Shown: piece by piece, positions 7,601 through 62,360 of the stretch
Layout: each line of letters starts with the position of its first letter
Numbering within the stretch: the stretch's first letter is position 1
From: Magnolia sinica
Lineage: Eukaryota; Streptophyta; Magnoliopsida; Magnoliales; Magnoliaceae
Direction: 5' to 3'
DNA length: 64,000 nt
Assembly (NCBI RefSeq): GCF_029962835.1
Contig: NC_080578.1
Coordinates: 29,219,001-29,283,000 of the forward strand
Program-made: the position numbers and the translations under genes
The notes under the pieces: generated by a model
The model's database searches: none
Told to the model about the DNA's origin: nothing
What the model saw: the letters and a program-made list of their open reading frames with translations, nothing else

Positions 7601-7993
7601 TAATGAAGCTGAATATACCCTTATTATTGGGATGGAAATAGCCAGCGAGCTGAAAGTAAAAGCATTACGAATTTATGGGGATTCTAAGTTGGTTATAAAT
7701 CAGTTGCTGACTGAGTTGAAACAAGAAAACAAGAACTTTTGCCATACTATCGAAGGGCACAATGTTTATTGGAACAATTCCTAAATGTGGAGGTCAAGCA
7801 TATACCACGGTACGAGAATGGGAAGGCCAATGCTTTAGCCAGTCTATCAGCAGCACTATCTTGCCCAGATCAGAGCCCCCTACATTTGAAAATTGAAGAA
7901 AGGGGATTCTTGCCTTCAGCAGAGATAATTGGTGAAACAATGGAAGCACTCCCCATATCATGCTTAGAAGTGACAATAGATGATTGGCGTTAG
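4690..7993 (+). pseudogene. pol: Tat protease, reverse transcriptase and RNase H remnant
   Basis: A protease-type zone ends with LLLGRPWMHQYG near 5168-5203, a motif found near the C-terminus of gypsy proteases. RT follows at about 6029-6850. It shows WISNIVLVKKK (about 6296-6330), VCVDFRDLNEACLKDDFPL (about 6346-6400), SFMDGYASYNQIRM (about 6450-6490) and the catalytic YVDDLVVRS near 6641-6670. RNase H lies at about 7080-7990, with ECNYALIEKICLALVFA and a second RNase H-like stretch containing FFDGAG (about 7510) and NNEAEY (about 7600). This archaeal-type RNase H is typical of Tat elements. The frame is broken in many places. Confidence 0.85.
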
Positions 7994-15991: not shown

Positions 15992-17467
15992 TAAATTTGA
16001 AAATAGTAATTTTGAGAAATATTGTACTACTCACGGCATATCATATGAGTTTTCTACTCCTAAAACACCTCAACAAAATAGGGTTGTTAAGAGAAAGAAT
16101 AGAGTGCAACAAGAGATGACCAATGTTATACTAAATAGCATGAATTTACCTAAAAACTTGTGGGCTGAAGCTATACATACTGCATGCTATATTATAAACC
16201 ATGTGCATATAAGAAAATTAAAAGATAAAATAGCCTATGAGTTATGGTTCAATAAGAAACCAACTGTTAAGTACTTTTGAATATTTGGAAGTAAGTGCTT
16301 CATATTACGTGACCGTGAAAGCCTAGGGAAGTTTGAAGCTAACAGTGATGAAGGGATATTCTTGGGTTATGCTCTGAATAGTTGAGCATATCGTGTTCTT
16401 AATAAAAGAACAGGAGTGATCTAGGAATCCATTATTGTTGTAATTGATGATCACCTGATCACTCCCACACCTAGTATAGAAGGTAATGAAGTCAATTTAA
16501 TTGAGAAACCTGACCCTTCATCTAGTTCAGTTAATACTGAACTAAGATCAGTCAAAGACCATCCTACTGATATGATATTAGGTAATCCTCTCATTGGTGT
16601 GTGAACAAGAAAACAATTAGAGAATATTTACAATTGTGTTTGCTTTACTTCTCAAATTGAACTAACTAACATAAAAGAAGAACTTACAAATGAAAATTGG
16701 ATTGTAGCCATGCAAGAAGTGCTAACTCAGTTTGTTAGGAATGATGTCTGGTATTTAGTTCCAAGACCATCTGATAAACATATAATTAGAACCAAATAGA
16801 TTTTCAAAAACAAATCTGATGAAATAGGAAATATAATTAGAAACAAGGATAGACTGGTTGTATAAGGATACACTCAGATAGAAGGAATCGATTATGATGA
16901 AACTTTTGCACCAGTAGCTCGCCTTGAATCCATCAACTTGTTTATGTCCATTGCTTGCTTTAAAAAATTCAAGATATATCAAATGAATGTTAAAAGTATA
17001 TTTTTAAATGGTAATCTATATGAAGAAGTCTATGTTGAACAACCTAAGGGTTTTGAGGACCTTAAACACTCAAATCATGTATATCGTCTTAAAAAGTCAC
17101 TTTATGGTCTAAAACAAGCTCCTAGGGCATGGTATGAGAAGCTGACTAAGTTTTTACTCAGTTACAATTTTATTATGGGAAGTGTTGATAAAACTTTATT
17201 TGTTAAAAAGAACAATGAACACATACTAATTGTACAGATATTGTTGATGATATTATCTATGGTTCTACAAGCACTAACCTGTCTGTTGAGTTTGCAGAGC
17301 TTATGAAATCCAAGTTTGAGATGAGTATGGTTGGAGAATTGATTTACTTTCTAAGCTTACAAGTTAAACATTAAGAAGATAGTATCTTCATTTCTCAAAC
17401 CAAATACACCTTAAATTTGGTTAAGAAGTTTGGATTTGAGAACGGTAAGAAATTTGATACTCCTATG
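15992..17467 (+). mobile_element. pol: Ty1/copia element, right part (integrase to reverse transcriptase)
   Basis: This continues the copia element broken at 1749. The integrase resumes with KFENSNFEKYC (about 15992-16025) and TPQQNRVVKRKNR (about 16067-16105, containing the catalytic region). RT follows at about 16690-17460, with [19 protein letters not shown] (about 17089-17145), the hallmark of copia RT, and a C-terminal segment. It stops abruptly where the Tekay-like LTR begins at 17468. No RNase H or 3' LTR of this copy is visible in the window. Broken. Confidence 0.88.
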
Positions 17468-24527: not shown

Positions 24528-24992
24528 GTTGTCATGTGTTAAGGTTCTGGGTTGTTTGTGTTTAAGGGTTTAGATTGTCATGTGTTAATGATTTGGATCT
24601 AAGTTGTCATGTGTTAAGAGTCTCGATTGTCATCTGTTAAGGGTTTTAGGTTATCATGTGTTAAAGGTTTGAATTGTCGTTGTCATGTGTTAAGGGTGTA
24701 GGTTGTCATATGTTAAAGTCTTGGGTCATCGTTATCATGTGTCAAAGGTCTAGGTTGTCATGCATTACAGGTTGAGGTTGACATAAAATAACCTCGACTT
24801 TTAACACATGACAACTTCGACTATGACAACTTTAACTCTTAACAAATGATAACCTTAACCCTTAACACATGACAATCTCGACCCTGCCCTTAACACTACA
24901 AGGACGCTTTCTGTGGGACCCATTATCGAGTATGCATTAAGGGTCGAAATTGTCATGGGTTAAGGGTCTAGGTTGTCTTGTGTTAAGAGTTG
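24528..24992. repeat. minisatellite with copies in both orientations
   Basis: About ten degenerate copies of a unit of roughly 20-30 bases with core TTGTCATGTGTTAAGGGTYT run on the + strand at about 24528-24779. The same core appears inverted (TTAACACATGACAAC) at about 24780-24897. It is direct again at about 24946-24992, after a short spacer. Confidence 0.75.
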
Positions 24993-30090: not shown

Positions 30091-33014
30091 TGTGACACCC
30101 CGTACTTTCCAGTACTCGAGTGTTACTATGTAATCTAATGTAATATAAATATAAAAGTAATACAACATAAACATATACACTATGGAAGGTTATTTATATA
30201 CTTTGTAAGATTTAAAATTTTCATATTAAAAATGATATGTAACCATAATCCATACTATGTGTATACACTTACAATATCATTAATATAAATTACAAATTAA
30301 AGAATTTATAATACATAAAAATAAAATATACTGGAAAAATTTAATGACTTATATAAAATTTAAAACCTAACACATATATGACCATACAAATAATGTATAT
30401 ATTAATCTTTGCTTACTGATATTCATATAATTTATATATATTAACAATTTGTGGTAATATAAATTACATATAACAAAATATATAAAGGAAATAAATAATA
30501 ATGATAATAGTAGTAATGATAATAATAATAAATGTTGAATTAACCCTAATAAAAACATTTAATGTTCTAAAATCATAGAACGGGTGGTCCCAGTCACCTA
30601 AATGAATTCTTAAGTACCTTTTAACCATTGATGATCGAATTGGAATCGATCTGACCGTTGGATTATCACAATAGACATTTAAAATCATTAATCGATACGC
30701 ATGGCCCACCTAAGCCTTGGATCAGCCTGGTCTTTGGTCCAAGACACTAAGTGGGCCCACCAAGTGGAATGAACGGCCTGGATTTATCACAAACATCACG
30801 GTGGGCCCTACACTTGTGATGCATGTGCAACTGGGTGTGGTGCACCCGCTGTGCATTGGCCCTGCCAACTGGGTCAAACACGGCTGACCCGATGGACCTC
30901 GAAATAGAGAGGTTTTTCCTCTCTTTTTCCCGCTAGTTTTGATTCAAACGGACAGACATTCATGATTTCAATTGTAGCCCACAAACCATGGCCCACCTCC
31001 ATAATCTGAGCCGCCCATCATGCTTGGTCCTCCATTTCAGTCCAACCCCAGCAATTTTTACATGTTGTTGGGCCCTTACGTAAACACAACACTAACCGCA
31101 AGAAAGATGGCGTGCGGAAGATGTGTGCTTTCAGCCCTCCCAAAATCTTTCCGTTGTGATCAAGGTGGGTCATCTATGACCAATCCAAACTGTCCAGCTT
31201 GTAGAGCCCTCAAACACGATCAAAACCATGCCACTGTTGCGGATTCACGCGTACGTGTGTGTGCACAAACAAGGCCCAAACAGAGACGTGTGCGGCTATT
31301 TTGCCGAAAACGGAAAGCTTCTGTTTTTCCTTTCGTTTGACATCTTGGCAATCTGCATGAGCTAGTAAAGGCTCATCTAGATCGTCCCTAATGGAGGAAT
31401 CTTGATCGTTCGTTCGTTGCTCGCGTGTTAGGGGTTTGTCTATGAGAAACCGGTGCCCAAAACCAGCAGCATACTAGCTGTTTCAAGAAAACCAAGTGCT
31501 GGGATCAAATCTTAGCCTTCCATTCACATCCAATGGACTTGAGGGTGAGGGAATACCTATAAAAGAAAGAGAAACGCCTTATCCCTCCCATTCTTACGGC
31601 AGCCATGAAGAATCGGCCGTTTTCCTCCTACCACCGAACCCACCACCCAAACCTCTATGGAACTTCAAACTCCCCATTCCACAAGCTCCCCTATGACCCC
31701 AAATCATTTGACACTGTCAGATTGAAGGGAGAGGCTTAAGGATGAAACCCGTCATTGGAGATGCCTCCTTCTCTGTTCGAGCCACGACGAGTTGCAACAA
31801 GTTCGGGCAAGTTCGGTCGGGTTGGAACTCCTACTGGCAGCAGTTGAAAAAGACAAGAGAGAAGTAGAGAAATGAAAGAAAGAAAGGAGGGAGAAGGAGG
31901 GTGAATGGAGAAAAGAAAACGAGAGAGAAAAAGTGGACGTTGTCCCTCTTCTTTTCTGTTGTCTGTTAGGCCATTGCATGAGCATGGCCTAAGTTCAGGA
32001 ACCCTTGAGTCCTCCTAGGATAAAAAGGAAGGAAAAGAGGAAGAAGGGAGTGGTGGAGCAACCGTTTGCCGAATTCCGCCTCTCAGCCGAGCTAACTTAG
32101 CTAGTCGCCGAGTCCTGACCTGTGTTAGGCCCAATGTTTGAGGTGTGTTGCTGATTTCTTTGGCTGAGTGAAGTTAGGGAAGAGAAGTAGGAAAAGAATG
32201 AGAGAAAAGAGAGGAAGGAAGAAGAGAGAAGAAGAGAAACTAGAGGGAAAGGTGGCCGTTGGGCTGACTAGGCTAAAACTGGGTTTGACTGGGCCAAGTT
32301 GGGTTTGGGCATGGTCCGAATGTTGCTGGATTCCCAGTGTGTGGGAAGCAAATAGAAAGAGAAAGAGGAAGGGTGAAGTGGGTGGTTGTGTGTGCTGAGT
32401 CAACTCAGTCTTCAAGTTGAGACGGGCCGAGCTGACTCAGTAAAGTTTCCTGAATCAAGCAACTAGATGGCCACGTTGGGGCTGTTTAGGTCCAGTTATT
32501 GTAGTAAGCCAAATTGGTGGCTAATTTTGAAAGAAGACTCGGGTTGGGATGGAGTTAACTCGCTGGAAGTTGAGTTAGGCCGCACTTATCTCCCGCCGAG
32601 GTACAAACTCTCTACCCTCTTGCATTGCGATTTAGATTCGATTACTTAATTAAATGTTGTAATTAGAAAGCTCGTATTTCACAAAATCCTAACCTTGAGT
32701 TAAATATGGGTCAAAGTCCACTATATAACCTCGTTATTATAAGCAAAATTGTGATTATCAAATAGTAGTATTTTATTTAATGATAGATCATGAAATCTAT
32801 TACACTACCAAAAAAAAGGGGCAAAGGATTCAGACCACATTACTTTTTTTACTATGGATATAAACCTTAGCTATAGTTGCTACGGTTTTAATCCGTAGTG
32901 AAAAAGTTGATACACCATTAATAATTAATAGTGTTGTAAGGGGCTCTATGAGGCCTAAAAAAATATATATATTCTATCTAAGTTGTCTGTATATTTATAA
33001 ATATTACTTTAGAG

Positions 33015-33150
33015 CTTAAAACAAAAAATCAGCCAAATCGAAGGCTCAAGTGGACCACATGGTAGGAAACATTGATATTAAATTACAGTTGCTTCTTATG
33101 GTGTGGTCCACTTGGGCCTTCAATAGATCTGAAATTTGGTTTTTTAAAGT
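33015..33150. repeat. fold-back inverted repeat
   Basis: GGCTCAAGTGGACCACAT (about 33042-33061) pairs with ATGGTGTGGTCCACTTGGGC (about 33098-33117), and similarity continues outward to about 33015 and 33150. Together the arms form a hairpin with a loop of about 35 bases. It resembles a small MITE-like fold-back. A relative of the arm occurs at 53757 (CAAGTGGGCCACACTAC). Confidence 0.65.
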
Positions 33151-34355
33151 AAAATAATTTATTAAAATTATGGATCGAAATGGGTTAACTAAATACATCA
33201 TGGTGGGCCCCACGGAGTCCCTGATCGGACCGTCCACGTCTGTCCGTCAGAGGAGCCCCAAATTTGGGTGTGCGCACAAAACAGAGCCGCACCCAAACAC
33301 TCCATTTCACTCCCTCTCTCTCTCTCTCTTCCCTGATCTCACTCTCCCCACCGATGATTCCCCTCTCTCTGCCCCCTAACCTTTCTATGTGTGTGTGTGT
33401 GTGTGTTTGTGATCCAAAGAAGGGAGGGTGCCGAAACCCTAACCCTATCTTTAAATGCAAATCTAATCCTGTTTGGAGCATTTTCTAACAAAATTCCAAT
33501 TTCAGGTATGGTTTCTGAGAGGTTTCAGCTCCTTTGGAGATTCTTTTACTTTTGAGATCTAATTTGCAGGTTTCAGCTCTCGAATATGGGTTTTTGCTCT
33601 CTGATTTGGGTTTTGTGGAATGTTTTGTTTGGTTTGCTCATTTTTTAAGGAGTTTCTTTCGATTGGAGAACTTATATGGGAATATGCACGTGCTTCCTTT
33701 TTTTCGGTTTTGAGAGGATTCAAATAGCGAGATTTCGTTGGATTTTACTGGAGTTTGCGAAATCTTAATGGAATTCCTCTTTCTGGAAAGATAATGTATG
33801 GTACTAGTTTGAGAAAGCACATGTTTAGAGGATTGTGTTCAAAAATATCTGATTTACACATTGGAATTAGGGTACTTCTTCTCTGTTTCTGCTTGGAATT
33901 TTGCTTTAGATCTTCTTTGATGGAATATTTTGATTTTTCAATCTTTTTTCAGGGTAGAATATGTGAATCTTTACTATTTTATTTGTTTTGATGGGAAAAT
34001 TTTAAAAAGATCATAGAAATAACAAATTCTATTATGTGATTTCCAAGTTTAAGAAAATGTAGTGTGGATTTAAGTAGGGTTTTAAATTTTCACTGCATTT
34101 GAATGATTTATTGTTGTATTGTGGCTCAGTTTCACTAACAAAATTTACTATTGTTGTATTGTGGCTCAGTTTCACTGCATTTGAATGATTTACTGTTGTT
34201 CATTTGAATGATTTCCAGATCTCATCCACTTGTACCGTGCCTATAAGTTGAATTCTATAAAACCCATTCCTTGATGAATTTAGTTTGATTTGATTTTATC
34301 TGATGCTACTGAACTTTCTACAAAACTCCAACCTTTTTAGGCAAGAATTATTCAC
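33151..34355. other. promoter-like and leader-like region of the CACTA element
   Basis: No coding frame is supported. It has a pyrimidine-rich CT tract (33310-33332), a GT microsatellite (33388-33407) and a TTTCAG|GTATGG context near 33502, reminiscent of a plant gene 5' UTR with intron edges. A direct repeat containing TATTGTTGTATTGTGGCTCAG lies near 34110 and 34149. It may be the transposon promoter and leader, or captured host upstream DNA. Confidence 0.4.
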
Positions 34356-35171
34356 TCACCCATCTTTCATATTTGTCGACAAACTGTTTGAGCGACCTAG
34401 CTGACTGTGTTTGTTCACTTCCACATGATCATCTGATGAGTTGGTTTCCTGGGAGACCTGTTTGTCAAAAACAGGAATCTGCCTGCTACGCTGGCATTTT
34501 GAGAAATGCTCTGATTTCATCGAGTTCCAAGAGTTCAGTGCTTCATTTCCATCGATAGCGGCAAGAGATTTCCTCTTCATACCAGGAAGCACTCTCAGTC
34601 CAGCATATGAACCAGGTATGCATGGTCGTGTTTCCATTTCACCACAATCACCGGAAATGTTCCGTGTGCTACAACTATTGGATTGAGTTATTCTGTACAT
34701 ATGCTCAATAAATTCATTAATGAGAATAGGCCAAGCACCTTTAGGGTCATATCCTTCAAGAAACTCATCTATGCATCTGCTAAATGGTAGAAGTTGTTGC
34801 CAAGTGTCCTCAGAAATATTTTGCCGATGATGTTTCTCAACAAATTCACACCATTGGTTAAGAAGTTGAAACCTTCCTGTCAAAACTAATCTCCACATAG
34901 CTACAGCCCTTCTTACATCGATGTCCTTTTGCCCATTTTCATGGCAAATGAAAAACACAAACCCATAGAAACATGTGAATGAATGAGAATCTACAGTCAA
35001 GTTTAGGAGTGACATGAGCTTGGAAAGGTCATCAAAAATCACATTCCTGTCACTTGATTGTCCTCTTGAGTTAACTAACTTTGAAAGCAAAGCTAGTTCC
35101 TCCTTTGATTTTGCATGTTCATTTATTGATATAATCTCGCAATATCGGGTGTAGATGTCGATTTTTCCATA
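34356..35171 (-). pseudogene. captured DCN1-like (AAR3-like) cullin-neddylation gene copy
   Basis: The minus-strand frame is open for 271 codons, from just after a stop at 35174 to a TGA at 34356. It matches the potentiating-neddylation (cullin-binding, PF03556) domain: DIYTRYCEI near the start, then MWRLVLTGRFQLLNQWCEF, DTWQQLLPFSRCIDEFLEGY, and GAWPILINEFIEHMY. A Ser-rich tail of about 100 residues follows, containing GMKRKSLAAIDGNE. DCN1-like proteins bring the NEDD8-loaded E2 to cullins; the tail and overall layout resemble the plant AAR3 branch (from memory). The usual N-terminal Met is missing (only TTG or internal ATG), so the 5' end is probably cut. It lies antisense and head-to-head to the TNP2 gene, inside the CACTA. 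No intron interrupts it. It may be untranslated, or driven from element DNA. Confidence 0.85.
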
Positions 35172-35504
35172 TCATTGTGTGTCATGAGCCCAAAAATGGA
35201 TGGGCGTTCAATAATCATTGTTTCGTCTTATGTAATCCACATAAGATTTGGATCTTCCTTTTTTCAGTCTCATGCCCTAACATAACGTAGAAAAATGGAT
35301 GAATGGCATGGATGAAACACATACATCATGCGGTGACCCACACAACACCGTCAGTAGGCAATCCAGGTCCCTCGTGATATGCCCATGAAAAGTTAAAGCT
35401 ATTCAAAGACTAAACTCCAATGATAGTCATAGATGCATGTGTTTAGAATTAGATGAATGGATGAAAAATAATAATTATTTTTTTTTGTAAGGTGCAGGTT
35501 CAAA

Positions 35505-38500
35505 ATGAACCCCATGGTTAAACAGGATCCAGCTATAACAGATAAGGAGTGGATGACACTAAGTTTTCCAAACCCTTGTTTTATTTCTGGAATCAGAAGC
35601 TTTGTGAAGTTTGCACAAGAACACCTTCCTGGTAGAGAAACCATTCTTTGTCCATGTGCCACTTGCAGATGTTTACGATTACCGGTTTCTTATGATGATT
35701 TGGAAATACATCTCATGCAAAATGGATTCGACTCAAGCTATAAGGTTTGGGACATGCATGGTGAGCATGTATCACCTAAGCATACTGAATATGCATCAAG
35801 TTCCCAACAGTACCACAATGTCCTGAACTTAAATGAGGTTCACAATGCGATTGTTCAAGAACTCGATGGTAATAACCTAGATGAAGTTGTATAGGATGAG
35901 TCGAATGTAACCCCTGTAGTCGAAGGCATCTTTAAGGAAAATAAAATTGATGAGTTTGGAGAAAATCTACGAGACGCAATGACTGAGCTATACCCAGGGG
36001 TCCAAGATTTCACCGTGCTGACTTTTATTGTACAACTTTTCAAATTAAAGGTGAACCATGGATGGAGCGAAAAAAGCTTTATAAAGCTCCTTCAACTACT
36101 AAAGAAGGTGTTACCTTTCAGTAACAAGGCCCCTACTAATACCTACCAAGTGAAGAAGATCATTACAAAGTTGGATCTTGATTATGTGAAGATCCATGCT
36201 TGTCCAAATGACTATATCTTGTACTAGAAGAGAATGAGATGAAAATCAGTTGTCCAACTTGTAAAACCCCTAGGTTCAAGATAGAAATGAATGTTGAGAA
36301 AAAATAATCTCATGTACATGTCAAGGTGTTAAGGTATTTTCCATTAACACCAAGGCTACAAAGAATGTTCAGTGTGCCATGGTTAGCGAAAGAAATGTCC
36401 TGGCACTCAACCAGAAAATTGCAACCTGAAAAGATGGAGTATCCGGCTGATTCTATTGCATTGAAGATTCTCGATGAGAAGTATATGGACTTTTCAACTG
36501 AGCCTTGCAATGTTCGATTAGGCCTGGCTACAGATGGGTTTAACCCATTTGGTGCTTTGACTATAGCTTATAGTTCATGGCCCATTATGTGTGTGACATA
36601 CAACGTTCCACCAAAGCTTTGCATGAAACCTCAGCTTACTATGTTAACTTTGCTCATTGAGGGACCACAACAACCCGGAAAGGATATTGATGTTTATTTA
36701 TGACCATTGATTGATGAATTGTAAGACTTATGGCATAAAGGGGTCACGACGCTTGACACATATCATAAAAATAAATTTAAGATACGTGCCGTTTTTTCTC
36801 TGGACAATCCACGACTTTCCAGTATATGGTAATGTTTCTGATTATAAGACTAAGGATAAGTATGGTTGTCCTGTATGTGGTCCCAACATAGATTCCTTGC
36901 AACTCTAATATAGAAAAAAAACATGTTTATATAGGTCACAAACGATGGTTGCCAATGTTAGACCAGGCAAGGAAGGACACAAGTGCTGGCACATTTAATA
37001 AGAAGATGGAGATACGACATCAACCCATTTATCTAGATAGATTGAGGTCGAAAGACAGACTGCGAACCTACATATGCAATGGGGGAAGACTGAGAAGAGG
37101 AATATGAGGGGTATTGATGGAGGCCGACAAGAGCTAACGGGTGATGTTGAATCACCGTGGATCACCGTGGTTCTTCAAACAGTCTACATTATTTGATCTG
37201 GAGAATTGGAAAGACATTCCGGTATGTCGCAACCTTGATGTTACGCACAACCTTGATGTTATGCATGTCGAGAAAAATATATGTGAAATCCTTATTGCCT
37301 TGTTGTTGAACACACCTGACAAGAGCAAGGATGATGCTAATGCGCGCAAGGACCTGAAACGGTTGGGAATTCAGAAGCATCTATGGCTAAAAAAGAGCAA
37401 TGACAAGATGATTTAGAAACAAGGTCCTTTTTGTTTAAGAAAAAAAGAGAAAAAGCTTTTCATCCAGACTTTGCACGACCCGTGTGTTTCAATCGGTTTT
37501 AGTGCGAATTAGAAGACCATCATAAAGGGAGATTACGTGGATTTAAAGGGAATGAAGTCTCATTCTTACCATGTGTTGATGCAACATTTGCTCCTAGTTC
37601 TCATCTAGCATGCATTCAGGGATAGGAAGGTCATTCGTCCTATAATTACAAGCTTTTGCACCTTCTTTAATGCCTTGTGCTCGACAACAGTAGACGTTCA
37701 AACGCTCCTCACTCTTGAGAGGGGTATGGCTAGGACATTATGTCAGCTTGAGATTATATGCCCTCCACTATATTTGTCGTGATGATGCATCTGTAGATCC
37801 ACTTGGCTTATGAGGCTCGCATATGTGATCCTGTATACTATCGATGGATGTATCCATTCGAAAGGTACACTATAAGTTTAGTAAGAATAATTCGGCTTAA
37901 CATCTACGGTTGTATGTATTTGTAATGTATCATTATCTTTGTCAGGTTCATGAAGACATTCAAGGCCTATGTCCGTAACAAGACGCGACCTGAGGGTTGC
38001 ATTGTAGAACAATATATCCAAGAGGAGACAATTATATATTGCAACCAATACAGAGGAAAATAAAAAACAAACCTCTTGGAAAAATTGGAAAAACGGTTTG
38101 TTGGAGTCATTTTAGGACTACAAAAGTTGCTAGATGTTGTTGATGACGGTAACAATGATGACGATGTTGGTCTAATAGGTTCAAGTCAAAGTGTTATCCT
38201 AGTAGGTATCGAATACGAACAGGCTAGTACATGGGTACTGAAGAGTCATCCTAGCTATGATGTGTGGGAAGGGTATGCACAATTAGCTCATTTGTATATA
38301 TCTTCTTTACTGCAATTTCAATATAATAATGGTATCAAATAACACGCAGGAAGCACAAAGATTTCTTGTGGCGATGTTACAGGAGGATCAACAGGGTGCT
38401 TAGCGAGGATGAATTCATACCTTGGTTGAAGAGGCAACCAGAGTTTAGCGAATCTGACTATAAAAAATTTAAAGATATAGTGAGAGGACCTCTAGCTTTT

Positions 38501-39113
38501 TGTACTCAATATAATAAGTATTGTATTAATGGTTTTCTCTTTGTCACTAAAGACTATGAGGAGAATAAAATGAATTAAAATAGTGGGGTTATGACAGAGG
38601 GTATGACCATCTTCCAATCTAGTGCTAAGGATATGAATACAGTGGATGAAAATCAACCTTACTACGGAGTCCTTCATAAAATTATCCAATTAGATTATAG
38701 AACAGGGTACAAGCCCATCTTATTTAAGTGTGATTGGGTAAAGGTGATGCATCATGGTCTTTCTTTTGATGTCTAAGCGAATCTGAGATTAGTTAATTTG
38801 TCCAGTCTTTACAGTTCTGACAAATTGGGTGACAAGCCATTCATTCTTGCGTAGCATGCCACGTAAGTTTTCTACTCCAGAGATCCAAAAAATCCCTGAA
38901 TGGCATGTGGTATTAGAGGTTCCAAAAAAGATTTTTATCAAAGAAGAGACATGTCATTTATCGGAACAATTTAAGGATGTAGCTAATGTCAATGCAGGAC
39001 CTAATCTCACCTCATTAGCAATTGTTGATGAGTTGATATTCAATGAACCTGAAGACATTAGTGTTGTAGTCGAGAAAACAAAGAAAAGAAAGCGACCAAG
39101 GAGAATCTCTTAA
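35505..39113 (+). pseudogene. CACTA TNP2-type transposase (TNPD), decayed
   Basis: It starts at an ATG (35505) with a transposase-associated domain (FISGIRSFVKFAQEHLPGRE, then CPCATCRC). The TNP2 core follows (36326-37416), with RLGLATDGFNPFGAL near 36520-36560 (a catalytic Asp region) and LDVMHVEKNICEIL near 37252-37293. A DUF4218-like part holds WMYPFERFMK, split by an 81-base intron (37865-37945, GT...AG). Next come a segment with GPLAFCTQYNKYCINGFLF (about 38487-38545) and a DUF4216-like part (YYGVLHKIIQLDY). TNP2 cuts and moves the element. The frame is open to an in-frame TAG at 35892, continues in frame to 36225, and changes frame by 36326; later segments are also interrupted. Transposase decay is therefore clear. 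Confidence 0.88.
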
Positions 39114-39276
39114 ATTATTTATATTTTCTAAGCATGTAACAATATGATATTTATTGGAGGAAATCCAATCAAGGTATGGATAATGTAGTGAATTTTTTGT
39201 ACTTTATCTTTTATCCAAATTATTGTATTAATCATTAGTGTTTTTATTTTATTTTATTTTATTTGAATTTAAACAG

Positions 39277-41070
39277 GCACATGGATTCACAACTAGAGGC
39301 ATTGGGTGTGCACTTGACTGAGACTACAAATGCAAGCAAGACCAAAGATAATATGATAGTTCTCCTTAATTGGATATGTAAATTTCAATTTTCTTATATA
39401 TTAGCGGTAATTAACAATGTGTATATGATAGTTCTCCTTTATGTTGTTGTGCCAACTTCTTCTTCTTTGTCTAGAAAGAGAGGTCCTATTAGGGGTGCTT
39501 TTTTACATAAGCAACCTGACAGGAAAAAAGTCTTAAAGACAAATGAATTCGAGCAATTGAATGAGGATTGTCCTGAACAAAAGTAATTTGTATCGCATAT
39601 CGATATCCTCACCCATACTCATATCCCGATCATATACCAGGACTTTTGCCAGGTGCCTCATGCACACATTTAAATGATCATAGAGTCATTGTCACGGGCT
39701 TATGAGTTTGAGGGTCAAAGTTGGGATGTGAGTCTTACATACATAACAAAACGCATCAAGAAAACATGGCGGAATTACAAGAAAAGGTTGACTGCAAAAT
39801 ATATTAAAGACAAGGATCCTGCAGTTGTGAGAAATAGTCCTTCCACCCCCAGGTATCCCTATGGAGGATTGGTTAGTCTTTGCGAATCAACATAGCACTA
39901 AGGAATTCAAGAGAGCAAGCGAAAGGAATAAAGTCAATTGATCCAAGCTAAAAGGACTTGCGTGTCTTGGGAGGAACAGCATGGCTATTATTCACCATCA
40001 GATGGTATGCATTATTTATTTATAAATATAGGTATTATAGTTTAATATTGAATTTACTTTTGAATTATCACTCATTTAACTCCATTAATATGTAATGTGT
40101 CAAAGGCGAAGGAGAGGAATCTTACCTCTGATGCCGAGATAGGTAGACGTGATGTTTACTTAAGAGCCCATACAAGCAAGGACAAAGTTGTCCAGTATCC
40201 TGACCTTATTGTAAGTACATCCCCTTCTACCACTAACTAGTACCTTTATGAGATGCCAATGTATAACTTTGAATTATTTTACATCCATTTGTATTTTCTC
40301 ACAGGAAAAATTAGATGAGCTTTATTCTAGCAATCCTTCTTCTAAGATTACCAACGTTGACGATGCCCTCACACAGGTAATAATAAAATTTAAAAATTAC
40401 AGTGAAATTCATGGTAATTATGAATTTTCTAATAACTTGATTTGTAATGTTTTATAGTTGGTTGGTTCTGACAGTAGAGGGCGAATGCGGGGTCTAGGTT
40501 GCTCAATAACCAAGACAGGACTGAAGATGTCAGCCCCTGCCCGTTCAAAGGTAGAGAATTTGATAAAAGAAAGAGATAGCCTAGTGTAGGAGATATTTGA
40601 TATAAAGAAATCATTGGCCAAGATGGAGGCATGGATGGAGATGCAGCAACATGCATAATCTACTCAAAACCTCTCATCACCAACAATTGCTAAATCTGCT
40701 CAGGCATCGTCAGTATGCAAGTGTAAATTTGCTACTATATTGAACTTACAATTATTTTATAAACGATAACAATACGAATGCCATTTTATATATGTACATG
40801 TAGCCGGATATTATATATATCGGTAAGAGCTGCGACTTGCTTGGTTAGGGCAATGGTGATGTAGTTGCTCGTGGTCAAGTACATGAAGTTAATCCAAATG
40901 CAGTTGTCCATTGCAAACCATTGGAGGAGGGAGCTTTTGTTATTACCCTAATTGAGATTATACATCCAGACACTCATTTGTGGAAAGAAGATGGGTTCGC
41001 ATCTACACTTGGAGATGCTAGTCCAGGATCACTTGTGCAATGGGGGAAGGAATCTTTGATATTTCAATAA
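39277..41070 (+). pseudogene. CACTA TNPA/Transposase_24-like gene, decayed
   Basis: A multi-exon gene in the same direction as TNP2. Segments recognised: RKRGPIRGAF (about 39475), KKTWRNYKKRL (about 39748), EDWLVFANQHSTKEFKRASE, then, after splice-like junctions, exons at about 40107-40209, 40305-40376 and 40458-40700. The last contains SDSRGRMRGLGCSITKTGLK and a Lys/Glu-rich coiled coil. A final exon at about 40803-41070 has GDVVARGQVHEVNPNAVVH and ends TTTCAATAA. This order is that of En/Spm second genes (PF03004 plus DUF8039-like tail), which bind the element ends. In-frame stops occur near 40587 and 40847, so it is a remnant. The 5' end is unclear. Confidence 0.75.
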
Positions 41071-42290
41071 TTTGAACAAATTTAGTACTCTATAATTGAA
41101 CTTGGTGTGGATGCTTTTTTTAGTTACTTTATATGATGTTTCACTTATTTTTTTGGTTAATTTTGAACTAATTTGGCACTTTAGTTACTTTATATTGATG
41201 AACTCAGAACTTAGTTTGGTTTTTAGTTACTTTATATTGATGTTTCACTTGTTTTTTTTTTTTTTTTTTTTTTTGCTTACTCTATATGTTGTTTGGTTTG
41301 GGTTTTGTAATTTTGAATGAATTTTATACTCTATATTTAAACATATTAGACTCCGTTTGGTCGTAACAAACCAAATAGAGCCTATGCCCCTTTTTAACTC
41401 CGTCAATGCAACTCCTTGCATTGCCGGTCCTAAGCCTGGGTAAAGGAGGAGGGAGAATGGGCATCAAGGTGAGTTGTGTACTTTCCTTCATTTTCTGAGA
41501 GAGATTTTTAAAATCCTTGATGGTTAATTTTAATAGTTTTCTGGCTTCTTCTACTATCATTTGAGGACCTCAAAGGCCCAACTAACTTGAAATTTTTATA
41601 TGCAGGCTAATGTATTTTTAGCCCCACAGATCAATGTTGCCACTACAAGGTTCAATACTGAAATGGCAAAGTTTTTAACTATTTATTTTATCTTTGTTTT
41701 CATGTTCTTCATAAATAATTTGATGTCTTAACTTCCTGTCATTACTAGCTAGTCTTGTCACTATTTGTACATATGTCATCTCATGAGTATTACTATTTGT
41801 TATTTTCTTACCCCTGTAGTAATTATCAGAAGCAGTGGACCATCATTGAAAGATTACCCTTGTAGTAAGTCCAACTAAGGTATGAATAATATATGGTTTT
41901 AGTTCATGGTAAATGGTACCTTTTATTGTGGATCACCCCTAGACTAAAGACCTGGTACCTATTGTTCTAAGTTCGTATTGATTTCACTAATTGTAATAGA
42001 AAACAGACTCAAGCTCAAGCTGGGGGAGATTGTTACCACAATTCCAACTATCGATAAGTACAATTTAGAAGGCAGATTTAAATTTTATTTATTATTTTAT
42101 TTATTTGTAAATCTGTGCCCATATGCATTGTCGGAGAAACTAAAAAACTTACTCATTCTCAGATTGCATCGTGGAATATGCATCCATTAGGCAAAGAAAG
42201 GGCGACATTCCAAGCACTCACACTTTCTCTCTTTGCTTGCTAAATTGGTGAGTCTTCTTTCCTTCATACTATATGATTCATTGATGAAGT
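41071..42290. other. noncoding CACTA interior, possible LINE scrap
   Basis: No gene is supported. A 24-base poly-T run lies at about 41250. At about 41395-41460 the phrases CTCCTTGCATTGCCGGTCC and GGGTAAAGGAGGAGGG resemble leader sequence of plant LINE-like elements (from memory, low confidence). The rest is unassigned. Confidence 0.35.
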
Positions 42291-42595
42291 GGCCTAACCA
42301 TTTGGACAGGCCCATGTTTATATAATATCTCGAAATTGATGAAGTAGATCCAGATATGCGTCGAAGCTATTCAGATGTTGAGTGGGGCTCCCTAGAAGGT
42401 GGGAACTGCTATTATGACCATGATGAAGCTGTCCATTTTCTATGGACAACAATATGGGTGTGCGTCAGAGCTATCTAGATGTTGAGCGAGGGTCCTTGGA
42501 AGGTAGGAACCACTGTTATGACCATGATGAAGTTGTCCATTTCCTATGGACAGCATTGGAGGGGCCTGACCATTTGGACAGACCGTGTTTATATC
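42291..42595. repeat. two-copy tandem repeat (about 104 bp) between direct repeats
   Basis: Two copies, 42356-42459 and 42460-42562, share GATGTTGAG, GGAAGGTAGGAAC-like and ATGACCATGATGAAG blocks. They are bracketed by a 33-base direct repeat with core CCATTTGGACAG (42291-42323 and 42563-42595). It adjoins the telomere-like array that starts at about 42606. Confidence 0.75.
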
Positions 42596-42605
42596 TGTAT
42601 TTGTA

Positions 42606-45540
42606 AGGACCACACCCTTAACCTAAACCACACCCTAAACCTATAACCTAAAACTAAACGTTAACCTATAACCTAAACTTTAACCTTTAACCTATAAGCT
42701 ATAACTTATAACCTAAACCTAAACCTACAACCTATAACCTAACCTAAACCTAAACCTAAACCTATAACCTAAACCTATAACCTATAACCTAAACCTAAAC
42801 TACTACCTAAACCCGATCTTAAACCCGATCCCCAACCCAAACCCGATTTCCTAAACCTAAACCTTAACCTATTCTCAATTCCCTAAAGTTATAACTTATA
42901 ACTTATAACCTATAACCTAAACCTAAACCTAACCTAAACCTATACATAAACCTACAACCTTAACCTAAACCTAAAATCTAAATGTATTCTCAAATCCCTA
43001 AACCTAAACCTACACTTAATTCTAATCTCAACTTCTTAACCTAAACCTAAACTTGAAAACCCAAACCTAAACCCAATCCCGAACCCGAACCCGATTTCCT
43101 AAACCTAAACCTTAACCTATTCTCAATTCCCTAAAGCTATAACCGGTAACTTATAACCTAAACCTAAACCTAACCTAAACCTAAACCTAACCTAAACCTA
43201 TAACCTAAACCTAACCTAAACCCAAAACCTAAACTAAACCTAAACCAAAACCTATAACCTTAACCTATAACATAAACCTATAACCTATAACCTATAACCT
43301 AAACTAATAACTTATAACCTAACCTTAACCTAAACCTAAAACCTAAACCTAAACCTATAACCTAAACCTATAAACTAAAACCTAAACCTAAACTTAAAAC
43401 CTAAATCTATTCTCAAATCCCTAAACCTAAACCTACACCTAATCCTAATCTTAACTCCCTAACCTAAACCTAAACCTAAACTTGAAAACCCAATCCTAAA
43501 CCCGATCTCAAACCCGAACTTGATTTCCTAAACCTAAACCTTAACCTATTCTCAATTCCCTAAAGCTATAACCTATAACCTATAACCTATAACCTACACC
43601 TAAACCTAACATAAACCTATAACCTTAACCTAAACTTAAAACCTAAACCTAAACCTAAAACCTAAATGTATTATCAAATCCTTAAACCTAAACATACACC
43701 TAGTCCTAATCTCAACTCCTTAACCTAAACCTAAACTTGAAAACCCAAGCTAAACCTGATCTCAAACCTGAACCTGACTTCCTAAACCTAAACCTTAACC
43801 AAAACCTATATCCTAAACCTAAACCTTAACCTAAACCTAAACCTATAACCTTAACCTAAACCAAAACCTATAACCTATAACTTAAACTTATAACCGATAA
43901 CCTAACCTTAACCTAAACCTAAAACCTAAACCTAAACCTAAAACCTAAAACCTAAGCCTAAACCTAAACCTAAACCTATAACCTAAAACCTAAGCCTAAA
44001 CCTAAAACCTAAATGTCTTCTCAAATCTGTAAACCTAAACCTACACCTAATCCTAATCTCAACTCCCTAACCTAAACCTAAACCTAAACTTGAAAACCCA
44101 AACATAAACCCGATCCCAAACCCAAACCTGATTTCCTAAACCTAAACCTTAACCTATTCCCAATTCCCTAAAGCTATAACCTATAACTTATAACCTCTAA
44201 CCTATAACCTACACCTAAACCTAACCTAAACCTATAACCTTAACCTAAACCTAAAACCTAAACCTAAACCTAAAACCTAATTGTATTCTCAAATCCTTAA
44301 ACCTAAACCTACACCTAATCCTAATCTCAACTCCTTAACCTAAACCTAAACTTGAAAATGTAAACTAAAACCGATCTTAAACCCGAACCCAATTTCCTAA
44401 ACCTAAACCTTAACCTATTCTCAATTCCCTAAAGCTTTAATCTATATCCTATAACCTATAACCATAACCTAAACCTAAACCTAAACCTATAACCTTAACC
44501 TAAACCAAAACCTATAACCTAAACCTTAACCTATAACCTATAACCTATAACCTAAACTTATAACCGATAACCCAACCTTAACCTAAACCTAAAACTTAAA
44601 GCTAAACCTAAAACCTAAAACCCAAACCTAAACCTAAAACCTAAATGTATTCTCAAATCCCTAAACCTAAACCTACACTTAATCTTAATCTCAACTCCCT
44701 AACCTAAACCTAAACCTAAACTTGAAAACCTAAACCTAAACCCCCAGATCTTGAACCCGAACCTGATTTCCTAAACCTAAACCTTAACCTATTCTCAATT
44801 CCCTAAAGCTATAACCTATAACCTATAACCTACACCTAAACCTATAACCTTAACCTAAACCTAAAACCTAAACCTAAACCTAAAACCTAAATGTATTCTC
44901 AAATCATTAAACCTAAACCTAAACCTACACCTAATCCTAATCTCAACTCCTTAACCTAAACCTAAACTTGAAAACCCAAACCAAACCCGATCTCAAACCC
45001 GAACCCAATTTCCTAAACCTAAACCTTAACCTATTCTCAATTCCCTAAAGCTTTAACCTATAACCTATAACCAATAACCTAAACCTAAACCTATAACCTA
45101 AACCTTAACCTATAACCTAAACTTATAACCTATAACCTAACCTTAACCTAAACCCAAACCTAAAACTTAAACCTAAACCTATAACCTAAAACCTAAACCT
45201 AAACCTAAAACCTAAATGTATTCTCAAATCCCTAAACCTAAACCTATACCTAATCCTAATCTCAACTCCCTAACCTAAACCTAAACCTACACCTAATCCT
45301 AATCTCAACTCCCTAACCTAAACCTAAACTTAAACTTGAAAACCCAAACATAAACCCAATCCTGAACCTGAACCCGATTTCTTAAACCTAAACCTTAACC
45401 TATTCTCAATTCCTTAAAGCTATAACCTATAACCTAAACATAACCTAAACCTATAACCTAAACCTATAAGCTTAACCTAAAACTAAAACCTAAACCTAAA
45501 CCTAAACCTAAACTTAAACCTATAACCTTAACCTAAACCT
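42606..45540. repeat. telomere-like array with higher-order structure
   Basis: About 2.9 kb of degenerate CCTAAA, CCTATAA and CCTTAA units, related to but not the same as the plant telomere repeat CCCTAAA. A marker phrase TTCTCAATTCCCTAAAG recurs eight times (starts 42872, 43120, 43549, 44157, 44418, 44792, 45034, 45403). Spacings alternate short (about 242-261) and long (about 369-429), with one 608-base gap that fits a lost marker. This implies a higher-order unit of about 610-680 bases, roughly four to five copies. Other markers (CAAATCCCTAAACC, GAACCCGATTTCCTAAACC) sit at fixed places within it. Confidence 0.88.
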
Positions 45541-45730
45541 AGTTTTTGAGTTTAAAAGTCCATCCTAGGTTTGAACACATTACTCATGTTAAATTTTTCC
45601 ATAGTTTAGAAGATTTGGAGGTACATTTTTGATTTCTTCATATATAAGTTTTTTTTTTGTCTTTCTTCCTTTAGAGATGTGTACAAAGGCATGCTTATTT
45701 GATTGTGTCTACAAATGTTGTTTTATATAG

Positions 45731-45919
45731 GCTAACAAGCTTAAGAAGTTAGTGGAAGATGAAATTCATTTTCTCAAGGGAAGGGTTTCAGAACTTGAAA
45801 GTGATCTTGTGTCAAAGTCCACAGAAGTTACATCTGCAGTTTCAAGGAAAGAAGAAGCTTTGTCTTTTACATTTGTTGAAATTGACCGTCTGAAGGAAGA
45901 AAATTCTGTAAAAACGTGA
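45731..45919 (+). pseudogene. coiled-coil exon-like fragment, probably captured
   Basis: A 62-codon frame begins right after a splice-acceptor-like TTTTATATAG (45721-45730) and ends at TGA (45917-45919). It is rich in Lys, Glu, Leu and Ser with heptad spacing, for example KKLVEDEIHFLKGRVSELES and SRKEEALSFTFVEIDRLKEE, so it is probably coiled coil. I do not recognise the parent protein. It does not look like the En/Spm transposase genes, so capture of a host exon is the likely explanation. It could instead be the last exon of the CACTA second gene, displaced by the array between them. Confidence 0.5.
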
Positions 45920-46225
45920 TCATTATTGAATGCATATGGAGGGTGTTTACTGTGTTGGAGTGTATTTGTTTCTTGCACATGAGGGCATGTCTTAATTGTA
46001 ATTCTTATGATAAGTTGAGGAAAGTGAAGTATTGTTTATTTAGAAATGTGATTGTAGGATGCATTATATGATTTGATTGCTATTTGTAATAAATGCATCG
46101 TTTTTTTATATATTTCATTTTATGTATTATTTCTATCAGCATTAAGCTTAGATGAGTTATCAATCACAGCAGGTTCTTACAATGGAAACAGGTCGTATTA
46201 TTACAAATTTTTTTTTTTAAAATAG
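45920..46225. other. noncoding CACTA interior
   Basis: AT-rich sequence following the coiled-coil fragment. It could be its 3' untranslated part; no gene is seen. Confidence 0.4.
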
Positions 46226-46625
46226 TTGCGAATATAATCTGTAGTTATAGCTATGGATTTCGTTCGTAGCTATTGGTATCTATTGCTACGGATATTGTCC
46301 GTAACTATTGTTATCTATTGCTACAAATATAATTCATAGCTATTGGTATTTATTGCTACAGATATAATCTGTAGCTATCAGTATCTATTGCTACGGATAT
46401 AATCCATAGATGTTAGTATCTATTGCTACGGATATTGTCGGTAGTTGTTGGTATCTATGGCTATAGATATAATCCGTAGCTATTGGTATCTATGGCTACG
46501 GATATAATCTATAGCTATTAGTATCTATTGCTACAGATATGATCTGTAGCTATACCTTTAGCCACCCCACCAATAGCGACAGACGTGCTACGGATCATAT
46601 CCGTAGTAAAAGGGCTTTTACTACG
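46226..46625. repeat. CACTA subterminal repeats, right end
   Basis: About eight degenerate copies of a unit of roughly 40 bases (core TATTGCTACGGATATAATCC plus GTAGCTATTGGTATC). The palindrome-like pair CTACGGATATAATCCGTAG is a candidate binding site for the TNPA-like protein. A single related motif (GCTACGGTTTTAATCCGTAG) lies near the left end at about 32880-32900. Confidence 0.85.
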
Positions 46626-48625
46626 ATTTTTAGCCGTAGCCTTTGCCCGTTTTTCTTGTAGTGTTATCATGACTAGATTCATTATGAATAGTTATGATTA
46701 TTATCATTAACAAATATTATCATCTTCCTTATGGGATTAGTCAAATACTTGTTAATATAATTATTAGTTAATCCTTATTGTATTATCATTAGAAAATATC
46801 CTATTATTATTACTTGAGAGATTATTAGTCATTATAAAAATGTTAAATAATGTTGGTACATTCAAACGTGAACTTATGAACCATCATTATTAATATTGAT
46901 GGATTAATATTCCTATTATGGATATTATTCAATCCATTGTACCATAATAATAATAATAATAACAATATTAATAATAAATTAGGATTTAAATCCTAGAATC
47001 TAAGTTTAGGACTAAACCCTAGGATGAAGCCCTAATTCTATATTAAAACCCTAAAATAATCCAAACCCTAGGTTATATAAATCTTGACCATAGACGCTTG
47101 GTAGAACATTGATCTCACGAACTACGTTGCAATTCATGATAGGATTCAATTCTAAGGGCATGAGCTCTTAGCGACACCAGAAGGTTATTCTGTTCATCAG
47201 GTGATGATTCTTCCTCTTGAGCTTTCCATTTTGCCATTAGCTTAAGTTAAGTTTTTATTTTAATTTATAATTGATATCTCCATTTCATAATCACATGGGT
47301 TAACTGTTGGAATTGAATTGTTATGTTACATGCTTAATGTTTATCCTACATATTTATTCATGCTTGTGGATTATTTGTGGATTGCTTATGGAACTTAAAC
47401 TGGTATATTAGTGGAAAACTCCCACCTATAAATGTACACCCATACTTAGGATGTAACCCGATTGGTTGTACTTATAATGGACCTTCAGCTTAATGGTTAT
47501 TGAATGGTGGTTTAAATTGACCATTGATGTGGGCTTACCATCCATGGTTGGTGTGTCCAATGGTTTTTAAGGATGGTCTTTATCGCATGGTTTTGATGTC
47601 AACCTTATATGGCATATTTTTTATATTTGCCCTATATGGCATAATTTGATATTTGCCCTACATGGTTTTGTTTTGGTACTTACCCTAGATGGGTTTGATG
47701 TTTTATTTTGTATAACCATGTGATGGTAAGCCCGATATACTATAATATGATTGGCCACTAGTTGATGGGTTTCCATTAAACATCCTAAGATGTTAGTCTC
47801 ATGAGTCGGGGGTGGTGGTCATGGGATACTAATGCGTGAGCTGTCGCCTGGGCTCTGAGCTCCCCGCAGTGACCTTTGAGCTTATTAAACCTGTTGATTG
47901 TAAATAGACTAATAATGGTTTGGCTAATCATACATACATGGCACAGACCAGCATCCATTGCTATCGTACGAAATGTACGTATTTGTACGACTGGATGATT
48001 TTCTCAGGTCGATGATTGCATGGGTGACGAGCCCACTGTCTATACGAATGAGCATCCCCAGGACGATGATTGCATATTTCATGCATCCATTCATTTAATA
48101 AGACCTGCATCGTGTATTGTTTTGTATGCTTTACTTTATAACTATGCTTACCTAATGCAGCGGTGTGTAATCTTGAAGGGAATTCACACTGAGTTGGCCA
48201 CTCATCCATCAAATAAATATAACTGTATAGGTAGCACAGGTGGCTTAAGTGATTTTCAAGTTTGGGTTGATGAGGAGTTGGGTTCAAGTATCAGGGTTAC
48301 ATGACTGTATCTACCTTGAGAAGCTGAGGGGTCTTGCGGCTCAAATTTACTTGCATTCTACTATTTCTCATATATTAGATTATGTAATTCTTTTATTTGT
48401 TAATTTTGGAGACAATAGCTTGTATAAGTCATCATGGGCAACTTCTTGTATATTTAAATGATGATGAAATTTTCCTTTATATCGATTTGTCCATACTACG
48501 CTCATCTGCTTACTCTGAATGAAGAAAAAAAATGTACACTCAAATTTGACCATCTTTTAAAGTTAACACTCGAGTTTTTGGGACACGGGTCATATACTTG
48601 GGTCCTGAAAAGTCGGGGTATTACA

Positions 48626-60636: not shown

Positions 60637-60983
60637 CTGTTTCGGTCCAATTAGATTTAGGATTCTCTCTTATCATAATTCATAGCCCTAGGATTTTTCT
60701 CGCATCATTTCATAAATTTTAAGAAACTTAATTTATTTGTCTTTATTTTCGCCAGGAATTGAGGATGGAAGCTGAAAAAGAAAAAAAAAATTGTCTTCAA
60801 AGTGAAGGAGGAGCTCCTAATTCTTCGGAAATCAATCATCTCCATTTCCGGGTTCTTTCTTCCAATTCTTGTTTACATAGTTTCATCTTGCTTTTAGGAA
60901 TTTATGATTTTTAGCTCTAGTTTTATTTCTCTTAGGTTACATCTTAGTTTAGCTTTCCTTCCTACATTGCAGTAATTCAGTTT

Positions 60984-62360
60984 ATGATAAGACATATATC
61001 TCTGAACATAGAACTAGCACCTTTTGATCCTGAAATAGAAAGAACATTTCATAGAAGATTGAGAAACATTCTATTTGAAATGGTGGACGAGAATGGAATT
61101 AAAGCTCTTAGAGATTATTTAGCTCCTGTCCAATTTAATGCACCTTCATGCATAGTGTTGCCAGCCACCACGGCAGCACACTTTGAACTTAAACCTGGGG
61201 TCATACAATTGTTGCCCTCCTTCTATGGTTTAGATAAGGAGGATCCATATCATCATGTGAAAGAATTCCTAGACATTTGCTCTACCTTTAGGTTCCAAAA
61301 ATTTTCAGTTGATTCGATCCGTTTGTGCCTTTTTCCTTTTTCTTTGAAGGATAAGGCGAAAGCATGGTTGAATTCTCTAGAAGTTGGGTCTATCACTACA
61401 TGGGACCAACTGTCTAAGAAGTTCTTAAACAAGTACTTCCCCGTTCACAAAACTAATGCTCTTCATAGAGAAATTACTAATTTTACACAAAAAGAGGGTG
61501 AGCATTTTCATGAATATTGGGAAAGATGGAAGGACTTGCTACTTAAATGTCCACACCATGGTTTTGAGAAGTGGCAATAGGTTCAATACTTCTATGACGA
61601 TCTGACACCCCAAAACCATCGCATGGTTGATGCCACCAGTGGAGGGTCATTCATGACCAAAAGTGATATCGAATCTTGGAATTTCTTTGAAACCTTGTGT
61701 GAAAACTCTCAGCAATGGGACTATTCAAATAGAGGTGAAAGAAGTCCCCAATTATAGAAGAAAGGTGGTATATATGAGATAGGAATCACACCAAATCTTT
61801 ATGCCAAGATTGATGGCCTGACAAAGAAAGTTGATGCTTTGATGTTAAATAATGGACCTCCAAAAACAACTCAAATCGAGTCATGTGCCATATGTTCTAG
61901 TCCCGCCCATCCTACGTAGTCTTGTCTATCTGGTGTTGCATTTCTAGAATTTCTCTTTAAACAAGTGTATGCTATGAATACTTTTTAGAGAACTGAGAAT
62001 GATCCTTACTCAGACACTTACAACCCAGGGTGGGCTAGACATCCAAATTTTTCTTAGGCAAAAGGACCACAACAAGGAGGACCATCTAGAAATCCTCTAA
62101 TGCAACCATACCCCCAAGTTGGCAGTCAACAATTTCAACAGTTTCCGCAATATGAACAACTTCCTTCACAATCAAGGAAACCATCTCTTGAAGATACACT
62201 CAATCTTTTTATGCAGAGTTCTCTTCAATTTCAAAAAGACACCCAACAAACTTTACAAGCTAATCAGCAAAGCTTACATGCAAATGCGCAATCCATTACC
62301 AAGCTGGAAGTACAGTTGGGTCAACTTGCTGCCACATCTATAGCAAATCCAAAAGGATAG
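60984..62360 (+). pseudogene. gag: Athila gag remnant, element 2
   Basis: The first segment (60984-61580) holds a retrotrans_gag core: GVIQLLPSFYGLDKEDPYHH, LFPFSLKDKAKAWLNSL, KYFPVHKTNALHREITNF and EHFHEYWERWKDLL. This is the standard Athila gag. A later Gln-rich segment (62100-62360) is the usual Athila linker before protease. Broken. Confidence 0.88.

Follow-up and report, generated by a model that had tools for sequence, protein, structure and literature searches.

An intron-free copy of a host DCN1-like gene, derived from spliced mRNA, inside a CACTA transposon of Magnolia sinica

The capture of genes by DNA transposons is commonly put down to the copying of genomic DNA, and LTR retrotransposons capture spliced host mRNA, as in maize Bs1. 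Where ends are rejoined by synthesis-dependent snap-back end joining, an inverted repeat lies across the joint and a short sequence is shared with the other end. Transposons of the Pack-TYPE, or Pack-CACTA, kind have been described (PMC8903248), and the available part of that paper's main text contains no passage on introns, cDNA, reverse transcription or splicing. CACTA-like elements of Chenopodium carry host gene fragments, such as an 80-bp AP2 piece (PMC8978399, accessible sections). According to the portion available, a survey of animal Pack-TIRs left out captures that lacked introns where the parent had several exons, on the suspicion that they were retroduplicates, meaning that the class of intron-free cargo has been filtered out by at least one capture survey; the same paper reports that the ARF6 retrogene lies nearly wholly within MER20, which could also reflect recurrent retroposition (PMC8277862). 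A literature search, in which subscription journals were thinly covered and sources were available in part, found no CACTA element with spliced multi-exon cargo.

Here, we describe such a locus in a 64,000-nucleotide stretch of the M. sinica genome (the window; C6:29219001-29283000; the genome totals 1.84 Gb in 127 contigs). A first-pass annotation made from the letters alone had proposed that an intronless, open DCN1/AAR3-like gene is carried there within a CACTA transposon. As a whole, the locus is best explained, with high confidence, as processed-cDNA cargo from a spliced mRNA, amplified and now decaying, in a Pack-CACTA-like element.

The proposed location inside a CACTA element was borne out. 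The left end, CACTACCAAAAAAAA, opens with CACTACC at 32803, the inverted counterpart (CACTACA) finishes at 46663, and the 3-bp target-site duplication of CACTA elements is present as TTA on both sides (Table 1). Both the transposase-associated domain and TNP2 are found, the latter split between frames, in keeping with the decay already noted for this neighbour; a weak DUF4216 match beyond TNP2 fell under its cut-off, and the other eight pieces scanned gave no match. At up to three mismatches the 15-base end pattern is not rare in the window (nine matches, with 5.76 expected from shuffles), and the CACTA assignment is based on the exact left end, on the point at which homology ends in five of the other seven cargo loci (32801-32803), on the subterminal repeats, and on the duplication. 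The CACTAC left end occupies the same place in three copies on C12 and in those on C14 and C1, the window element being the only one for which both ends were located. Oriented opposite to the transposase, the cargo lies 1.6 kb in from the left end. Pieces of TNP2 occur at two of the eight cargo loci (the window and C19), with none in the 10-kb stretches of the other six. The degenerate 3-kb AACCTAAACCTA minisatellite has long matches at the C3 and C1 cargo loci and a short one at C14, and seems to belong to the element family.

Table 1. Features of the CACTA element and its cargo, in positions of the window.
Feature	Position	Strand	Basis
Target-site duplication TTA, left	32800..32802		Flank of left end
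CACTA transposon, 13,861 bp	32803..46663	+	CACTAC ends, TTA duplication
Native CACTA left end, common to cargo-free relatives	32803..33346	+	88% to L051; many relatives match query 1-527 to 1-553
Segment A: 5′UTR-like, short exon, intron start, as C9:24489228-24490068	33323..34244	+	88-90% identity; gene reading by eye
Segment X, 139 bp, other origin	34239..34377		C2:55348572 (94%), 12 places on C9
Open frame of the first-pass annotation, 271 codons plus stop	34356..35171	-	Frame listing
Host DCN1-like cDNA covering nt 26-809 of the parent CDS, without its 8 introns	34378..35161	-	Alignment to C2 parent
Cullin-binding domain, residues 59-157	34701..34997	-	PF03556, E=7.6e-28
Joint of cDNA exon 1 to CACTA-native sequence; putative secondary deletion joint, ATG and 5′UTR removed	35161..35161		13/30 fetched relatives start here without cargo; C14 and C1 run on
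Transposase-associated domain	35505..35891	+	PF13963, E=8.7e-18
TNP2 transposase, broken over two frames	36326..36905	+	PF02992, E=2.8e-36 and 2.5e-6
AACCTAAACCTA-type minisatellite inside element	42596..45541		Repeat listing, cargo-locus comparison
35-bp subterminal repeats, right end	46202..46586		Repeat listing
Target-site duplication TTA, right	46664..46666		Flank of right end

A protein search of the whole genome returned 19 matches, comprising the frame itself, seven further copies, of which two were each split into two pieces, a remoter match on C9, and short matches to exons on C2. This C9 match (C9:16032375-16032683, 39% identity) is possibly an exon of a second DCN1-type gene. Aligned with C2:1134001-1160000, the window gave nine blocks of 93-97% identity, which correspond to the nine exons of the host's own DCN1-like gene (C2:1136682 onward). 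In this parent, GT follows the upstream block and AG precedes the downstream block at all eight boundaries, two of which permit two GT/AG splits, one being chosen. Once spliced, the parent has 302 codons, and its sole Pfam match at E 0.01 is PF03556, which would fit AAR3. The window copy is 94.6% identical to the parent over the captured span and, since all eight introns are missing relative to the nine-exon parent, each removed at its splice sites, its derivation from a spliced mRNA is established. The earlier suggestion of a captured processed copy of a multi-exon gene therefore stands, and the parent, which might have proved intronless over this span, has nine exons there. As in Pack-CACTA elements, a host gene fragment is thus accompanied by a parent elsewhere in the genome. 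The 3′ end of the cargo falls inside the CDS, in the last coding exon.

Besides the parental exons, the cargo occurs in eight places: the window on C6, three on C12, and one each on C14, C1, C19 and C3 (DNA search with the cDNA part, very common words skipped, all 12 candidates scored). The C12 copies sit in stretches that are 98-99% alike over 8.7-9.8 kb, which looks like segmental duplication multiplying a cargo copy without transposition, and six lineages are counted for this reason. These three copies (L012, L013 and L014) lie at 63.10, 61.97 and 64.08 Mb, within about 2.1 Mb, and one is inverted. The transposon family is far larger than the cargo set, with 2,799 and 1,825 candidates for two parts of the element, 40 of each being scored. 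Among 30 loci fetched, two carry the cargo (the window and C19), 13 start their homology at exactly 35161 without cargo, and 15 start elsewhere, at 35200, 35359-35367 or 35438.

The copies are in decay. In-frame stops are present in seven of the eight, the window copy alone being stop-free, indels in three (C19, C3 and C1), and a start codon together with an open frame in none. Between 18 and 27 of 780 sites separate each lineage from the reconstructed ancestor, and the capture is therefore not very recent, contrary to one of the two meanings that had been offered for the long open frame. A tree built from 260 codons is star-like, with deep-node bootstraps of 35-53, and places C14 beside C19 (bootstrap 46) instead of with C1; the grouping of C14 with C1 consequently follows from the TAG that they share at codon 29. 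The window, C12, C19 and C3 copies share the 35161 joint. The simplest order is one capture followed by two groups, C14/C1 and window/C12/C19/C3.

At the 35161 site the window has cDNA exon 1 where cargo-free loci have native sequence: ten of the 13 cargo-free loci were read there, nine of them as ATTTTTCC and one as ATTTTTTC, preceded by native sequence. The C14 and C1 copies retain the ATG and 99 nt of 5′UTR, reaching C2:1136583. As this position lies 30 nt after TATAAAA at C2:1136553, it is the expected transcript start, predicted solely from the TATA box. Comparison of the copies identifies the 35161 joint of the window copy as secondary, a putative deletion having taken the ATG and 5′UTR, and the longest captured pieces still present reach from the predicted start of transcription into the final coding exon.

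Past C2:1136583, the C14 and C1 copies enter 1 kb of sequence that is found at full length in cargo-free C5:45785250 and C14:55843178, and over most of its length at C19:22249564. Segment U (L015 5320-6344) was considered as a captured piece and rejected, as it is present in the cargo-free C5 and C14:55.84 Mb loci, some 2 kb ahead of the 35161 site. At the 5′ joint the cargo-free C5 and C14 loci read TTTC-AGCTAGAAG, and the cargo copies CCCTCT-A-AGCTAGAAG. An inverted repeat, CTAGCTTAGAGGGA ... TCCCTCTAAGCTAG, spans this joint in both the C14 and C1 copies, and two cargo-free relatives read TTTCAGCTAGAAG at the unfilled site. In our reading, the inverted repeat would be of the kind left by snap-back end joining. 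The signal is short, consisting of seven non-parental bases, six of them native; a 7-base match by chance has a probability of about 6e-5 (4 to the power -7) for one fixed alignment, and as the pattern was noticed after the fact this figure is a guide only. Pure snap-back for the whole inverted repeat was rejected because AGCTAG is native at the cargo-free site, which leaves a single base (A) that parent and native DNA both fail to give.

The cDNA sits with two other foreign pieces, segments A and X, where relatives have native 5′ sequence. In the cargo-free locus L053, the left end and the 1-kb segment are separated by about 0.7 kb of other sequence, an arrangement from which it follows that A, X and the cDNA have taken the place of some of the native 5′ region. 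Segment A overlaps the left end in a CT repeat common to both, and overlaps X by 6 bp, the A-X joint sharing GCCTAT or nearly so. Relative to C9, segment A is without about 0.1 kb near 34200-34213; a spliced intron was rejected as the source of this gap, the edges of which are not GT-AG by eye. Twenty more places match part of segment A at 79-92% (matches under 100 bp left aside), and the piece may represent a multi-copy leader or owe its spread to another mobile element. In the C19 copy (L017), segment A is broken between 6358 and 9534 by about 3.2 kb of other sequence, probably a later insertion. Segment X is present in all eight cargo copies, and its occurrence at 12 places on C9 led to its being dropped as transposon-native.

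The joint between the cDNA and X, TTTGTC followed by GACAAATATG, has an identical position in every one of the eight copies, with a one-base difference nearby in each of L015 and L016, and X and the cDNA abut there without overlap throughout. This common abutment is what favours a chimeric retrotransposon product, in which a template switch between X and the host mRNA would have yielded a molecule that was then inserted into the element. Such an origin is unlikely, given that the joints of the eight copies, read by eye, show neither poly(A), nor a long terminal repeat, nor a duplication specific to the cDNA; remnants of a retrotransposon were likewise absent on inspection, and the joints thus give no pointer to the source of reverse transcriptase.

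On balance we lean slightly towards the view that end joining patched a CACTA element that had suffered a break or gap in its 5′ part. The break would have been filled with patches, one of them supplied by first-strand cDNA. The 3′ end of this cDNA, corresponding to the 5′ end of the mRNA, may have snapped back on its own GAGGGA and copied TAAGCTAG, whereupon the AGCTAG of the snapped-back end would have annealed and joined to native transposon DNA. Transposition would then have multiplied the patched element, the C14/C1 group keeping the ATG and 5′UTR and sharing the stop at codon 29, and the window group losing the ATG through deletion.

We regard it as an even call whether a spliced host transcript entered the CACTA element directly, the cDNA end that corresponds to the start of the mRNA serving as one of several patches and being joined by snap-back to the element's own DNA; if true, DNA transposons could acquire host sequence by way of RNA with no integrated retrogene as an intermediate. 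A doubtful but possible alternative is that an intron-free retrogene of the C2 gene formed elsewhere, part of which was later copied by the CACTA element as genomic DNA, the retrogene possibly then being lost. DNA transposons are known to copy genomic DNA (PMC8277862 and PMC8978399, available parts), the former paper mentions the ARF6 retrogene in MER20 as a possible capture, and the neighbouring segments A and X do not come from the C2 gene. However, protein and DNA searches of the 1.84-Gb genome found no intron-free copy outside the eight cargo places, and the C14/C1 piece ends at the expected transcript start and meets native DNA directly, with no retrogene flank.

The 271-codon frame, which is open from stop to stop on the minus strand, is the longest among the 27 stop-to-stop frames of at least 120 aa listed for the window. 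Besides PF03556 (Cullin_binding), two weak Pfam lines (0.0072 and 0.066) fell under their cut-offs, and the best of 13 matched PDB sequences was human DCN1-like protein 2 (E=1.2e-26). Homology to PF03556 and to this human protein makes the frame more than a chance one; the cullin-binding (PONY) domain of DCN1-like proteins is present, and the best PDB match is to a DCN1 family member, not to a transposon-only protein. The claim that the frame is open across the domain and the C-terminal tail holds for its openness, but the final codons are not derived from the parent, homology to which is confined to the cDNA interval of Table 1.

As a coding sequence the window copy is impaired. The ATG of the parent is absent, a stop lies just upstream, and the first in-frame Met is residue 53; a start at this Met was dismissed as conceivable on paper with nothing in its favour. 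The DAD patch is not intact: residues 122 (D, probably the first Asp of the patch) and 146 (A) are retained, and residue 152 is Asn in place of the last Asp of the parent's patch. These are cullin-contact residues, located by alignment to human DCN1-like proteins and by the yeast spacing A253-D259 given in the available part of PMC4886823. A literature search found no paper on D241N. The frame is open by chance and very probably makes no working protein, and as a protein the window copy most likely does nothing and is a passenger.

The long open frame had also been offered as a possible sign of selection. A majority ancestor with five ambiguous sites was used, together with six lineages (L012 standing for the three C12 copies) and a neutral model drawn from the copies' own mutation spectrum, mostly G-to-A and C-to-T. 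The window branch carries 26 changes (17 replacement, nine silent, no stop), giving a dN/dS of about 0.66, which is under 1, though not significantly (P=0.21 against neutrality), and the other five lineages carry 18-27 changes with one to three stops each. Pooled, the six lineages have 103 replacement plus stop changes and 32 silent ones (dN/dS about 1.12, P=0.74 for less than neutral); the parent-plus-stem branch has six replacement and ten silent (dN/dS about 0.21, P=0.002). The cargo copies evolve as if neutral. The probability of being stop-free after 25 neutral changes is 0.22, and neutral simulation gives zero, one, two or three open lineages of six with probabilities of 0.16, 0.35, 0.30 and 0.15, so that at least one would be seen in 84% of cases. 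Under neutrality a single open lineage among the six is the most frequent result, and hence one open frame is what chance gives; neither the counts nor the simulation supported selection on the window frame.

It is accordingly very improbable that the window copy stays open for a useful protein: its standing as the sole stop-free copy of the eight and its low branch ratio point that way, whereas the test against neutrality, the simulated outcome, the absent parental ATG, and the Asp-to-Asn change in the DAD patch all point the other. Any transcription starting from the left end of the element would run through the cargo in the antisense direction relative to the parent. Antisense or small RNA from the element might tune the parent gene or shield the element from silencing. 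In favour of this are the opposite orientations of cargo and transposase and the roughly 95% likeness of the cargo to the parent, and a camouflage idea has been put forward (PMC8978399, available part); the decay looks neutral, although RNA effects need leave no codon signal, and we consider this regulatory role quite unlikely.

Elsewhere in the window, open pieces at 923-1360, 6026-7784, 16866-17306 and 60948-63510 resemble, by eye, copia- or gypsy-type retrotransposon proteins, and at 24528-24992 direct and inverted repeats of about 40 bp cluster around GTTGTCATGTGTTAAGG, possibly as a separate hairpin-rich element.

With the parent, cargo, cargo-free relatives and joints all preserved in one genome, the entry of a spliced message into a DNA transposon can be followed at single-base resolution. 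The locus also provides a clear negative: when the number of copies and their divergence are taken into account, a long open frame carried by a transposon does not count as evidence of selection. Processed pseudogenes and retrogenes resemble the cargo in having all introns removed, and differ from it in that the cargo is without poly(A) or a duplication of its own, ends at 3′ inside the coding region, and is carried by a DNA transposon. Capture by LTR retrotransposons, as in maize Bs1, likewise makes a spliced host fragment mobile, whereas the carrier here is cut-and-paste. Snap-back end joining shares both marks seen at the 5′ joint, and differs in that one end here appears to be cDNA. In animal Pack-TIRs, as far as the accessible text goes, host sequence is similarly duplicated by DNA transposons and template switching has been proposed (PMC8277862). 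The Chenopodium elements are alike in that the host fragments lie in their 5′ portion, ahead of the transposase-associated domain, and in having internal tandem-repeat arrays, whereas neither a spliced multi-exon piece nor an unfilled site is described in the available sections (PMC8978399). Pack-CACTA transposons, on the available text, share with the window element the CACTA ends, a host gene fragment inside, and several copies (PMC8903248), and the difference lies in the piece being a spliced cDNA and in the window element still having a decayed transposase.
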